This document shows positions 37,763 through 42,868 of a DNA stretch of 64,000 nt, in pieces. The DNA lies in contig DVEF01000060.1 in assembly GCA_015295805.1 (NCBI GenBank), positions 1 to 64,000 on the forward strand, in the 5' to 3' direction. The DNA comes from Geminocystis sp. M7585_C2015_104 (GTDB lineage Bacteria; Cyanobacteriota; Cyanobacteriia; Cyanobacteriales; Cyanobacteriaceae). The translations under genes and the position numbers were made by a program. Within the stretch, counting starts at the first letter, position 1. Every line of letters begins with the position of its first letter. Below the pieces are notes generated by a model. It saw nothing but the letters and a program-made list of their open reading frames with translations. It had not been told where the DNA came from and searched no databases.

Positions 37763-39349
37763 ATGAACTCAGACAAGAAAAGGGAAGATAGGATACTTGC
37801 AGGGCGCTACCATCTGGTAGAATTGGTGGGCTCGGGGGCAATGGGGCAGGTTTATCGAGCCGAGGATAAGGTGTTGGGAGGTGTCACCGTGGCCGTGAAA
37901 TTCCTCTCCCATACCCTCCTCAATGATAAAATGAGACAGCGGTTTGAACGAGAGGCCACCATCAGCGCCCTGTTGGGAGAAAAAAGCCTCCACATCGTCA
38001 AAGTGCGGGATTACGGGGTGGATGAGAATGATGTGCCCTTCTACGTCATGGAGTTTTTGGAAGGACAAAGTTTAAGCGACATCATCAAGTTCCAACCCCT
38101 TGAACTAAAGCGCTTTTTACGCCTCACCCGCCAAATATGCGTTGGCCTTGAAGCTGCCCATACGGGTATCATGCTACACGGAGAACTATGCCAGGTTGTC
38201 CACCGGGATATAAAACCGAGTAATATACTGGTAACAAAAGAGCCTACACTGGGAGAGCTGATCAAAATCCTGGACTTTGGTATTGCAAGGTTAGTACAGG
38301 CCAATGCAACTCAAACCCATTCATTCATGGGGACTTTGGCCTATTGCTCACCGGAACAGATGGAGGGGAAAAAACTAGACAACCGTTCGGATATTTACAG
38401 TCTAGGGGTGATGATGTATGAGATGTTAACCCTAGAAATGCCCATCCTGCCGGACTCCTCCTCCTTTGGCGCCTGGTATAAAGCCCATCATGAGTACGAA
38501 CCGCGGCCCTTTGACCCCCGTTTAAACATCCCCTCAGAGTTAAAGAGTATCATATTGAAGTGCATGGCCAAATCCCGGGAGGATCGTCCTCAGACAGTAG
38601 GGGAAATCATTAAGGTAATTGACAATATCGAAAAGGGAATCCAGGAATCAGCCACTAACGAAAGAACTTACTTTTCCGGCCACCCTACTATAGCTTCTGA
38701 TGTAAACAAAGAAGTCATAAGAGGAGACGATACCCCAACCATTGCAGTCCAAACCCCCAGACAGAAAAACAGAATAGATACTAGTCCCACCGAAGTTGTT
38801 ACCCAAGTATCCGCCGGTAGTACCCTCAGCAAACTAACTTGGCCCAAAAACAAGCCTCTGCAAAAAATCGTCTTCCCCCGTATCGTTACCACCGAAACCG
38901 AGACCTTTGCCAGTCTCTGGGTAATGTTGGATAAACAAGACATTATCAATCGACTCGTCAGTGTGCGCTACAATCAGTTTCTCTTTCTCCAAACCCCCCA
39001 TCCCATGATTCTTTGGATTACAGTTATATACAATCCCACTCATGGCCCCAGATGGCTACCCTGTTATTTAGACCTAAAAAGTGAATCCTCCCGACAAGTA
39101 GTTTCTCTCCTGGCAGACACTGGCAGTTACCGCATTCTCTTTTTTGCCATAGAAGAACCAGACCACTGTCAACATAGTATGATGTCTACTATTGCCGCTA
39201 ATCAGTGTAAAATCATGAAAGAATGGCTCAGAATCACCGCCACCATAAAAACCAGTGGTGAGCCGGCCGTCAGCAAGAGGAGACTAAAAGAAGAATTTGA
39301 GCGTCTTAAACCCAAAATCCTGGCTAAGCTGGCGGAAAGCTACAAGTAA
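37763..39349 (+). CDS. Hanks-type serine/threonine protein kinase
   Basis: 528 residues. Kinase domain about 15-290: glycine loop GSGAMGQV at 23-30, Lys46 in VAVKFL, catalytic HRDIKPSN at 147-154 and DFG at 171-173, APE-type YCSPEQMEG. A linker follows, then a separate C-terminal domain (about 360-528) with RIVTTETETFASLWVMLDKQ and a long HPMILWITVIYNPTHGPRW stretch. There is no transmembrane helix, so it is soluble. The C-terminal domain is not one I recognise and likely senses or recruits a partner. Confidence 0.92.
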   Translation: MNSDKKREDRILAGRYHLVELVGSGAMGQVYRAEDKVLGGVTVAVKFLSHTLLNDKMRQRFEREATISALLGEKSLHIVKVRDYGVDENDVPFYVMEFLEGQSLSDIIKFQPLELKRFLRLTRQICVGLEAAHTGIMLHGELCQVVHRDIKPSNILVTKEPTLGELIKILDFGIARLVQANATQTHSFMGTLAYCSPEQMEGKKLDNRSDIYSLGVMMYEMLTLEMPILPDSSSFGAWYKAHHEYEPRPFDPRLNIPSELKSIILKCMAKSREDRPQTVGEIIKVIDNIEKGIQESATNERTYFSGHPTIASDVNKEVIRGDDTPTIAVQTPRQKNRIDTSPTEVVTQVSAGSTLSKLTWPKNKPLQKIVFPRIVTTETETFASLWVMLDKQDIINRLVSVRYNQFLFLQTPHPMILWITVIYNPTHGPRWLPCYLDLKSESSRQVVSLLADTGSYRILFFAIEEPDHCQHSMMSTIAANQCKIMKEWLRITATIKTSGEPAVSKRRLKEEFERLKPKILAKLAESYK

Positions 39350-40678: not shown

Positions 40679-42868
40679 ATGTATCGCTTTCAGGTTACGG
40701 CACACACACAATTGGGGGAGTCTATCGCTATTGTCGGCTCAGTATCCCAATTAGGTCAATGGGATGTATCTAAATCCCTTCCCCTTTACACTGACACTCA
40801 CACCTATCCCCTCTGGTGGGTGGAGGTGGACCTTCCTGGAGACGGCCAAAAAGTAGAATACAAATACCTGAAAAAGAAGAAAGATGGCACTTTTGAGTGG
40901 GAATGCCTTGGTGACAACCGTTGGATTATCCTTGACGCCTCCGCGGAAAAATACACCATCGTCGTGGAGGATTTACAATTTGGGAAAGTCAATCCATATC
41001 CGTACGGCTATTGGGAAAAACCTATACCAACGCCCCCAATCCCCCCAAAAGAAAACGGCAAGAGAATTGTAGTTATAGGTAGTTCGGTAGCTCTGGGCTG
41101 TAGTGCCTGGTTATTACGAGGGTGGGCTCAGTTATTGAAAGAAACCCTTGAAGAGAAATACGGCCACCAGTTAATTAACGTTTCAGAAATAGGCGCCAAT
41201 GTTACCACAACTATTAAACGCTTCCCCCAGGTGGTAACCCCCTACAATCCCGATGTGGTAATTATCTCCCTTTCTCTGGGTAATGAGGGATTCGCCTACT
41301 GTCCACCCCATCAACGGCGGGCATTGCAACAACGATTTGAAAGTGGCTTACAGGAATTAATCCGCATGACAAGGGAGATTGGGGCCATTCCCATTCTGGG
41401 GTCACTATACCCCCATTCTCATTATACACCAGAACATAACTGGTTGTTGTACGACAGTCATGACCGCATGTTGAGTTGGGGTGTGCCGGTATTAGATTGG
41501 CTGACAGTGCTAAACGATGGCCATGGAAGGTTCGCCCCCGGTTTAGAATTCGATGCTGCCCATCCCAACAGTGAGGGACACCGTCGCATGTTTTCTGTTA
41601 TTGATATCACCCTCTTTTCCCCTGAGAGGCTAACTGGTACGGCAGCCGAGACAAAAAAAAAATCTGCTTCTCCAGTAAAGCTGTATAGTCGTCAGGGGCT
41701 AACTGTAAGTTATAACCCCACCTACGGTAGTCTTTTCTTCAGCAACACTAGTAACCTCCCCTTCACCATCAATGTAAATGTCATTCCCTCACAATGGCTA
41801 CAATCCCACTTCTATCTCCTAAAACAGCCATGTAAGCTGGCTTGTTTCTCTTTCACCCCTAAAGATAACCCTACCTTAAATATACCCCCCTCCACCCGGT
41901 TAGAATACTTCCCTCTATCCTTCTTCTTTTCCCCTACCCAAACCCAAGTCTTATTTTATGACGGCAATCTTGCTATTCTGCAACGAGACAGTAAAAGTGT
42001 CTATCTCATTAATCTCTCCCCCCATGAGTATAATGTGCATCCCATGTGGCAGGAGGTGTCTGATTCCTTAAAATCCCTCCCCCAGGGTTTCTACGAAGAC
42101 AGCCTCAATCCCGACACCCCCTTCCGTACCATGATTATAGGCCAATATGGCTTAGAAAGTCGAGTTAAAGTGCCCCCCCGCCAAGCCCTTTTCTTCACCC
42201 ACACCTGTAGCCTCTCAGAGAGAAAACGAATTGCTATCCTACCCCTGGGAGACAGATGTGCTGTTAGAATGTTATTACATAAGATGGAATATGATGGCCC
42301 GGCCTATCCCTTTGATTTAACCCGCACCACCAATCTCAGTGATGTCGCCCATATAATAGAAACGGGGTTTGATGACATGTGGAATCCTGCCTATTTGCAT
42401 TATAACCCCGAACATGGCAGGATCTATCATACCAAGTGGACGGGATTGTCTTTCGCCCATGAGGTGGAAGAGGGGGAAAATCCCCTAGAAAACATGTATC
42501 CCATCCTCCAGCGCATGAGAAAACGTTATCAGGCTAGGGCAAAACGATTCTGGTTTACTATCCAAAATAGCGATGAAATCCTCTTTATCCGCACTGGTTA
42601 TGCCACCAGGGGACAGGTGGAAGATTTAATGGCTAAACTTAAGAGTAAATGTCAGGGCAAACCATTTCGTCTTTTGATTTTATCAGAACAGTCCTCTCAA
42701 GAATTTGCTGGTTTGGAAAATGTATTTCATGAAAACCGTTATTTCAATCCTGATCACATGTATAACAACCTGGACTATTGGTTACAATGCACAGAAATAA
42801 TGCGTCAAATTCTTAATTCTTTTGGCATTTCTACTAAGAATCTTTTCTGGTGTCCTCCTAATATATAG
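40679..42868 (+). CDS. Three-module protein: CBM20-like, SGNH hydrolase-like, DUF1796-like
   Basis: 729 residues. Residues 1-97 resemble a starch-binding CBM20 (FQVTAHTQLGESIAIVGSV, LGQWDV, VEYKYLKKK). Residues 128-312 look like a SGNH/GDSL hydrolase: VIGSSVALG (Ser136 in block I), SLGNEG (Asn202, block III-like) and DAAHPNSEGH (Asp292, His295 in block V). Residues about 340-515 are beta-rich. Residues about 518-725 match DUF1796, a putative papain-like peptidase domain, with ILPLGDRCAVR (Cys528) and YPFDLTR. No signal peptide is seen, so it is probably cytosolic, acting on glycogen or a similar glucan. This combination is unusual; the function is inference. Confidence 0.7.
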   Translation: MYRFQVTAHTQLGESIAIVGSVSQLGQWDVSKSLPLYTDTHTYPLWWVEVDLPGDGQKVEYKYLKKKKDGTFEWECLGDNRWIILDASAEKYTIVVEDLQFGKVNPYPYGYWEKPIPTPPIPPKENGKRIVVIGSSVALGCSAWLLRGWAQLLKETLEEKYGHQLINVSEIGANVTTTIKRFPQVVTPYNPDVVIISLSLGNEGFAYCPPHQRRALQQRFESGLQELIRMTREIGAIPILGSLYPHSHYTPEHNWLLYDSHDRMLSWGVPVLDWLTVLNDGHGRFAPGLEFDAAHPNSEGHRRMFSVIDITLFSPERLTGTAAETKKKSASPVKLYSRQGLTVSYNPTYGSLFFSNTSNLPFTINVNVIPSQWLQSHFYLLKQPCKLACFSFTPKDNPTLNIPPSTRLEYFPLSFFFSPTQTQVLFYDGNLAILQRDSKSVYLINLSPHEYNVHPMWQEVSDSLKSLPQGFYEDSLNPDTPFRTMIIGQYGLESRVKVPPRQALFFTHTCSLSERKRIAILPLGDRCAVRMLLHKMEYDGPAYPFDLTRTTNLSDVAHIIETGFDDMWNPAYLHYNPEHGRIYHTKWTGLSFAHEVEEGENPLENMYPILQRMRKRYQARAKRFWFTIQNSDEILFIRTGYATRGQVEDLMAKLKSKCQGKPFRLLILSEQSSQEFAGLENVFHENRYFNPDHMYNNLDYWLQCTEIMRQILNSFGISTKNLFWCPPNI

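Follow-up and report, generated by a model that had tools for sequence, protein, structure and literature searches.

Laforin provides an example of a CBM20 domain bringing a modifying enzyme to glycogen; it removes phosphate, and its catalytic domain is unrelated to that of the protein examined here. TesA (thioesterase I/protease I/lysophospholipase L1) has GDS, GNDG and DxxHPN motifs that line up with our SGNH domain, but it is a single-domain enzyme that lacks a glucan module. SGNH catalytic domains joined to carbohydrate-binding modules are also known, namely CE2, the CE17 enzyme RiCE17 with its CBM35, and AlgX (PMC9487903), although these act on xylan, mannan and alginate and none of them carries CBM20 or DUF1796. 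By analogy, the nearest precedent is OctT (Rv2418c) of mycobacteria, a characterized acyl-CoA:glucosylglycerate acyltransferase of the SGNH type whose GDSL motif is incomplete (PMC4555173). The comparison is one of mechanism: OctT works in the cytosol and uses acyl-CoA as donor for the acylation of an alpha-glucosyl compound. In contrast to the protein described below, it has no CBM20, beta modules or DUF1796, and its acceptor is (di)glucosylglycerate. The union of an SGNH domain with a carbohydrate module is not new, whereas a cytosolic protein of the order CBM20-SGNH-beta modules-DUF1796, associated with an acyl-CoA ligase, was not found described in the literature that we searched. That search, which left most subscription journals outside its reach, also returned no paper that names DUF1796 or couples CBM20 with SGNH, and none on acylated cyanobacterial glycogen.

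In the window, which is the whole 64,000-nucleotide stretch of Geminocystis sp. M7585_C2015_104 that we analyzed, positions 40679-42868 of the plus strand form a single open reading frame of 729 codons with an ATG start. Its features are as follows.

40679..42868, plus strand: whole gene, 729 amino acids, CBM20 - SGNH - two beta modules - DUF1796, from Pfam and orthologues
40685..40951, plus strand: CBM20, residues 3-91, from Pfam; the equivalents of site 1 (W28, K62, W74, N80) are kept, those of site 2 are not
41060..41632, plus strand: SGNH/GDSL domain, residues 128-318, from Pfam; closest solved fold PbeAcXE (7tog)
41084..41086, plus strand: Ser136, putative block I nucleophile (GSS), aligned to the Ser of TesA GDS; invariant
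41192..41194, plus strand: Gly172, block II, aligned to the Gly of TesA ASISGDT; invariant
41282..41284, plus strand: Asn202, block III (LGNEG), aligned to the Asn of TesA GNDG; invariant
41552..41563, plus strand: Asp292-x-x-His295, block V (DAAHPN), aligned to TesA DGIHPN; invariant
41666..41932, plus strand: beta module copy 1, residues 330-418, tandem duplication by hhalign against copy 2
41933..42214, plus strand: beta module copy 2, residues 419-512, tandem duplication by hhalign; family-specific
42221..42865, plus strand: DUF1796, residues 515-729, from Pfam, alignments and the model; Cys527, Asp546 and His594 are kept in stand-alone DUF1796
42257..42259, plus strand: Cys527, invariant, position checked

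The initial annotation had read this stretch as one gene joining CBM20, SGNH and DUF1796 domains, and Pfam recovered all three above their cut-offs: CBM_20 at residues 3-91 (E 4e-23, 81.4 bits vs a cut-off of 23.3), Lipase_GDSL_2 (PF13472) at residues 132-303 (E 9e-15, 56 bits vs 32.9) and DUF1796 (PF08795) at residues 521-666 (E 4e-11, 43.5 bits vs 23). The AlphaFold2 model of the protein is confident (mean pLDDT 89, pTM 0.81). Searches of NCBIfam and PHROGs gave weak esterase matches to the SGNH part only, and a plasmid search gave generic SGNH matches only. The gene is present in one copy in its own genome. The survey of other genomes that the initial annotation had proposed covered 386 sampled cyanobacterial genomes, about 25 of which have the domain order at full length; six named contigs, five from MAGs and one from Amazonocrinis, have it too. 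The orthologues are full length and 50-90% identical, and 26 of them were aligned. Comparison with a 90% identical sister gave a dN/dS of 0.09 for the whole gene, 0.03 for the SGNH domain and 0.07 for DUF1796, showing that the protein is under purifying selection. Because full-length orthologues exist and dN/dS is low, the gene is confirmed to be real rather than a chance reading frame. In one genome (G154, L054:6816-9097), a change of reading frame within the beta modules splits the gene into CBM20-SGNH and DUF1796 halves.

We also considered the upstream aldo/keto reductase and protein kinase genes of the window as operon partners and rejected them; they are conserved in the sister genome only, barring loose similarity of the kinase, so no linkage with either is claimed. 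The kinase, of the Ser/Thr type, lies two genes upstream (37763-39349), and a similar kinase is found just upstream of the orthologue in another genome (G294). Across the loci compared, no neighbor of the gene other than an acyl-CoA ligase is conserved.

Alignment of the N-terminal domain to the starch-binding domain of Aspergillus niger glucoamylase (1ac0) places W28, K62, W74 and N80 on W543, K578, W590 and N595, which we take to be glucan-binding site 1, whereas Y527 and Y556, presumably site 2, are replaced by L12 and T40. Within the 26 orthologues W28 and W74 are invariant, and K62 and N80 nearly so. Many CBM20 domains keep one binding site alone, and the protein likely binds alpha-glucan through this single site. 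An invariant Met-Tyr opens all 26 aligned orthologues directly at the start of CBM20, leaving no room for a leader or signal peptide, as the initial annotation had supposed. The protein is therefore likely intracellular, and the CBM20 match and retained site 1 residues are in keeping with its further suggestion that an alpha-glucan, glycogen, is the probable target. Other cyanobacterial CBM20 proteins, an alpha-amylase or a GH15 glucoamylase (L057:2914-4842 and L058:963-3503), carry the domain C-terminally; here it is N-terminal.

The strict GDS signature is absent from the SGNH domain, with GSS found in 26/26 orthologues, and the imperfect GSS and GNEG motifs had led the initial annotation to doubt its activity. 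In profile comparison, the closest solved relative is TesA, with GSS falling on GDS, LGNEG on GGNDG and DAAHPN on DGIHPN, and Ser136, Gly172, Asn202, Asp292 and His295 are invariant in every one of the 26 orthologues. This correspondence, together with the invariance of the catalytic residues, largely answers the doubt, and because OctT likewise departs from GDSL, GSS would be no bar to activity. In the model, the best fold match of the SGNH part is the carbohydrate esterase PbeAcXE (7tog; Z 22.8, 2.2 A over 200 residues), and many single-domain GDSL hydrolases match with Z of about 20. To judge from these alignments the site looks intact, but fold and residues do not separate a transferase from an esterase.

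Residues 330-512, initially described as a beta-rich linker, are indeed rich in beta structure, but are not a plain linker: they form a tandem duplication of a beta module of about 90 residues (hhalign probability 97.4%, E 4e-11, copy vs copy), and controls with reversed sequences and other domains gave nothing. In a search of 117 genomes the module was confined to this protein family, and no relative was found in the PDB.

The conserved DUF1796 cysteine noticed in the initial annotation is invariant, but its number is 527 rather than 528. Along with Asp546 and His594, it is conserved even in stand-alone DUF1796 proteins of about 20-26% identity. Pfam labels DUF1796 as papain-like, and a peptidase had been offered as one possible role. 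However, the confident model of the domain (pLDDT 92) found no match under E 0.06 in a Foldseek search for a papain fold, the best VIA-align hit reached only Z 7.5 (2g6t), and neither these two methods nor profile comparison revealed a solved structure, papain-like or other, that matches convincingly, although a papain-like fold may have escaped these searches. Among the sampled cyanobacteria, DUF1796 occurs outside a family of small genomes (f31) only within the CBM20-SGNH-DUF1796 protein. In f31 its neighbors at several loci, though not all, are genes for glycosyltransferase, sugar aminotransferase, polysaccharide pyruvyltransferase or mannosidase, and in one picocyanobacterial genome (L064:7227-8702) it is fused behind a family 2 glycosyltransferase. 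Because the domain is fused to, or located beside, glycan genes in f31, we favor glycan modification over proteolysis as its probable role; nothing supports a papain-like peptidase.

What the initial annotation missed is that an AMP-binding acyl-CoA ligase of about 500 residues, the same in each case, lies near the gene at several loci. Within one family of 192 genomes, the gene and the ligase are each found in 54; 52 genomes have both, two the gene only, two the ligase only, and 136 neither (phi 0.95). Two control genes scored in the same 192 genomes, a GST-like gene and a CBM20 alpha-amylase, gave phi values of 0.05 and 0.17. Double-positive and double-negative genomes coexist within eight genera. 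As for the exceptions, one gene-only genome (G492) has a frameshift-broken ligase right beside the gene and the other (G515) has the gene as a fragment only, while both ligase-only genomes (G422 and G450) carry a more distant ligase copy, 68-70% identical. In these last two (L090 and L091), the ligase is followed by genes for a sigma-70 region 4 protein, DUF1822 and CHAT-CHASE2. Short gene remnants were seen in genomes that lack the ligase (G515:C5:9626-10159, G176:C3:6269090-6269302 and G130:C100:24499-24597), as if both were decaying together.

The two genes are within 10 kb of each other in 42/52 genomes (40 convergent, two co-directional). The co-directional pairs (G406 and G435) are operon-like, their members 33 and 163 bp apart, as is the pair in G154, from another family, where the ligase is directly upstream of the split gene on the same strand. 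The remaining ten pairs are unlinked, so shared position alone is insufficient to account for the pairing. Phylum-wide, the ligase (at least 63% identity) was detected in 19 of 386 genomes, and all 19 also have the gene. In the genome studied here, the ligase is encoded outside the window (G000:C41:98863-100353), unlinked to the gene, as it is in relatives. An orthologous ligase is absent from gene-positive genomes of other orders (f27, f28 and f29) and from G142; thus the gene does not need the ligase in every genome.

The ligase from this genome has malonyl-CoA synthetases, or a chimera of one, as its five closest solved relatives, with E values of about 1e-73 to 1e-77; the MatB-type enzymes 4fuq and 3nyq are among them. 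Of the NCBIfam models, malonyl-CoA synthase comes nearest, but the ligase scores below its curated cut-off (374 vs 558 bits). At the two positions that we take to be the basic residues binding the distal carboxylate of malonate, the Arg of ERYGMTE is conserved, whereas the second position carries Lys in place of Arg. Judged by its sequence, the partner is malonyl-CoA-synthetase-like.

From the observed domains, the invariant residues and the ligase co-occurrence, we infer a cytosolic, glycogen-docked enzyme that makes or cleaves an acyl ester on the glucan at its SGNH site and works with a dedicated acyl-CoA ligase; we put the probability of this reading at roughly 40%. CBM20 would dock the protein on glycogen and the malonyl-CoA-synthetase-like ligase would supply acyl-CoA, from which the acyl group could pass to Ser136 and on to a glucan hydroxyl by way of the SGNH Ser-His-Asp site, while Cys, His and Asp of DUF1796 may form a second glycan-modifying or acyl-relay site. 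The co-occurrence of the ligase favors acyl transfer no less than deacylation, and by analogy with OctT acylation seems the more likely direction. The fully specified version, in which cyanobacterial glycogen is acylated, perhaps malonylated, by a two-gene system of ligase and glycogen-bound SGNH/DUF1796 acyltransferase, we advance only as a tentative proposal.

In the opposite direction, the protein would be a glycogen deacylase within a salvage route: its SGNH site would strip off acyl groups that obstruct the degradation of glycogen, and the ligase would convert the released acid back into its CoA ester. The closest fold is that of an acetyl-xylan esterase, esterases are frequent among SGNH enzymes that carry a carbohydrate-binding module (PMC9487903), and an esterase with a ligase next to it would suit salvage; yet a separate glucan acyltransferase that would make the substrate was not found, the ligase being the sole conserved neighbor, and we consider this reading somewhat doubtful. 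A protein tethered to granules through CBM20 merely for location, with SGNH and DUF1796 acting on lipid, a small acyl-CoA or a granule-surface protein, would suit both the sequence proximity of the SGNH domain to a thioesterase/lysophospholipase and the papain-like label of DUF1796. The occurrence of DUF1796 in or beside glycan genes at several other loci makes such a substrate unlikely, and no papain-like fold was matched in the searches above.

CBM20 might instead bind another alpha-glucoside or a secondary ligand, with the pair of genes belonging to an unrelated acyl-sugar pathway. Loss of site 2 is consistent with this, as is the fact that the actual substrates of OctT are small soluble acyl-glucosides, but site 1 is so well kept across the 26 orthologues that we regard it as improbable. 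Finally, the association of gene and ligase could reflect shared ancestry or joint transfer with no shared function, since presence clusters by lineage and most of the pairs are adjacent. Against this stand the eight mixed genera, the ten unlinked pairs within one family, the separation of the two genes in this genome and its relatives, and the low phi of the control genes from the same genomes, which together render it very improbable.

An ester-forming or ester-breaking enzyme docked on glycogen thus remains our preferred reading, and through the ligase link an unusual domain fusion becomes a two-gene prediction open to direct test in Nostoc-type laboratory strains. If correct, this reading would offer a lead to the function of DUF1796 and assign one to an acyl-CoA ligase whose sole visible correlate so far is the CBM20-SGNH-DUF1796 protein. 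The pairing suggests that the carbon store of the cell is chemically modified in a way that has not been described before. Glycogen acylation, if true, would be a covalent decoration of a bacterial storage polysaccharide not recognized before, and if acyl groups on glycogen are edited, cyanobacteria would exert chemical control over their main carbon reserve, akin to that of phosphate on plant starch and animal glycogen.
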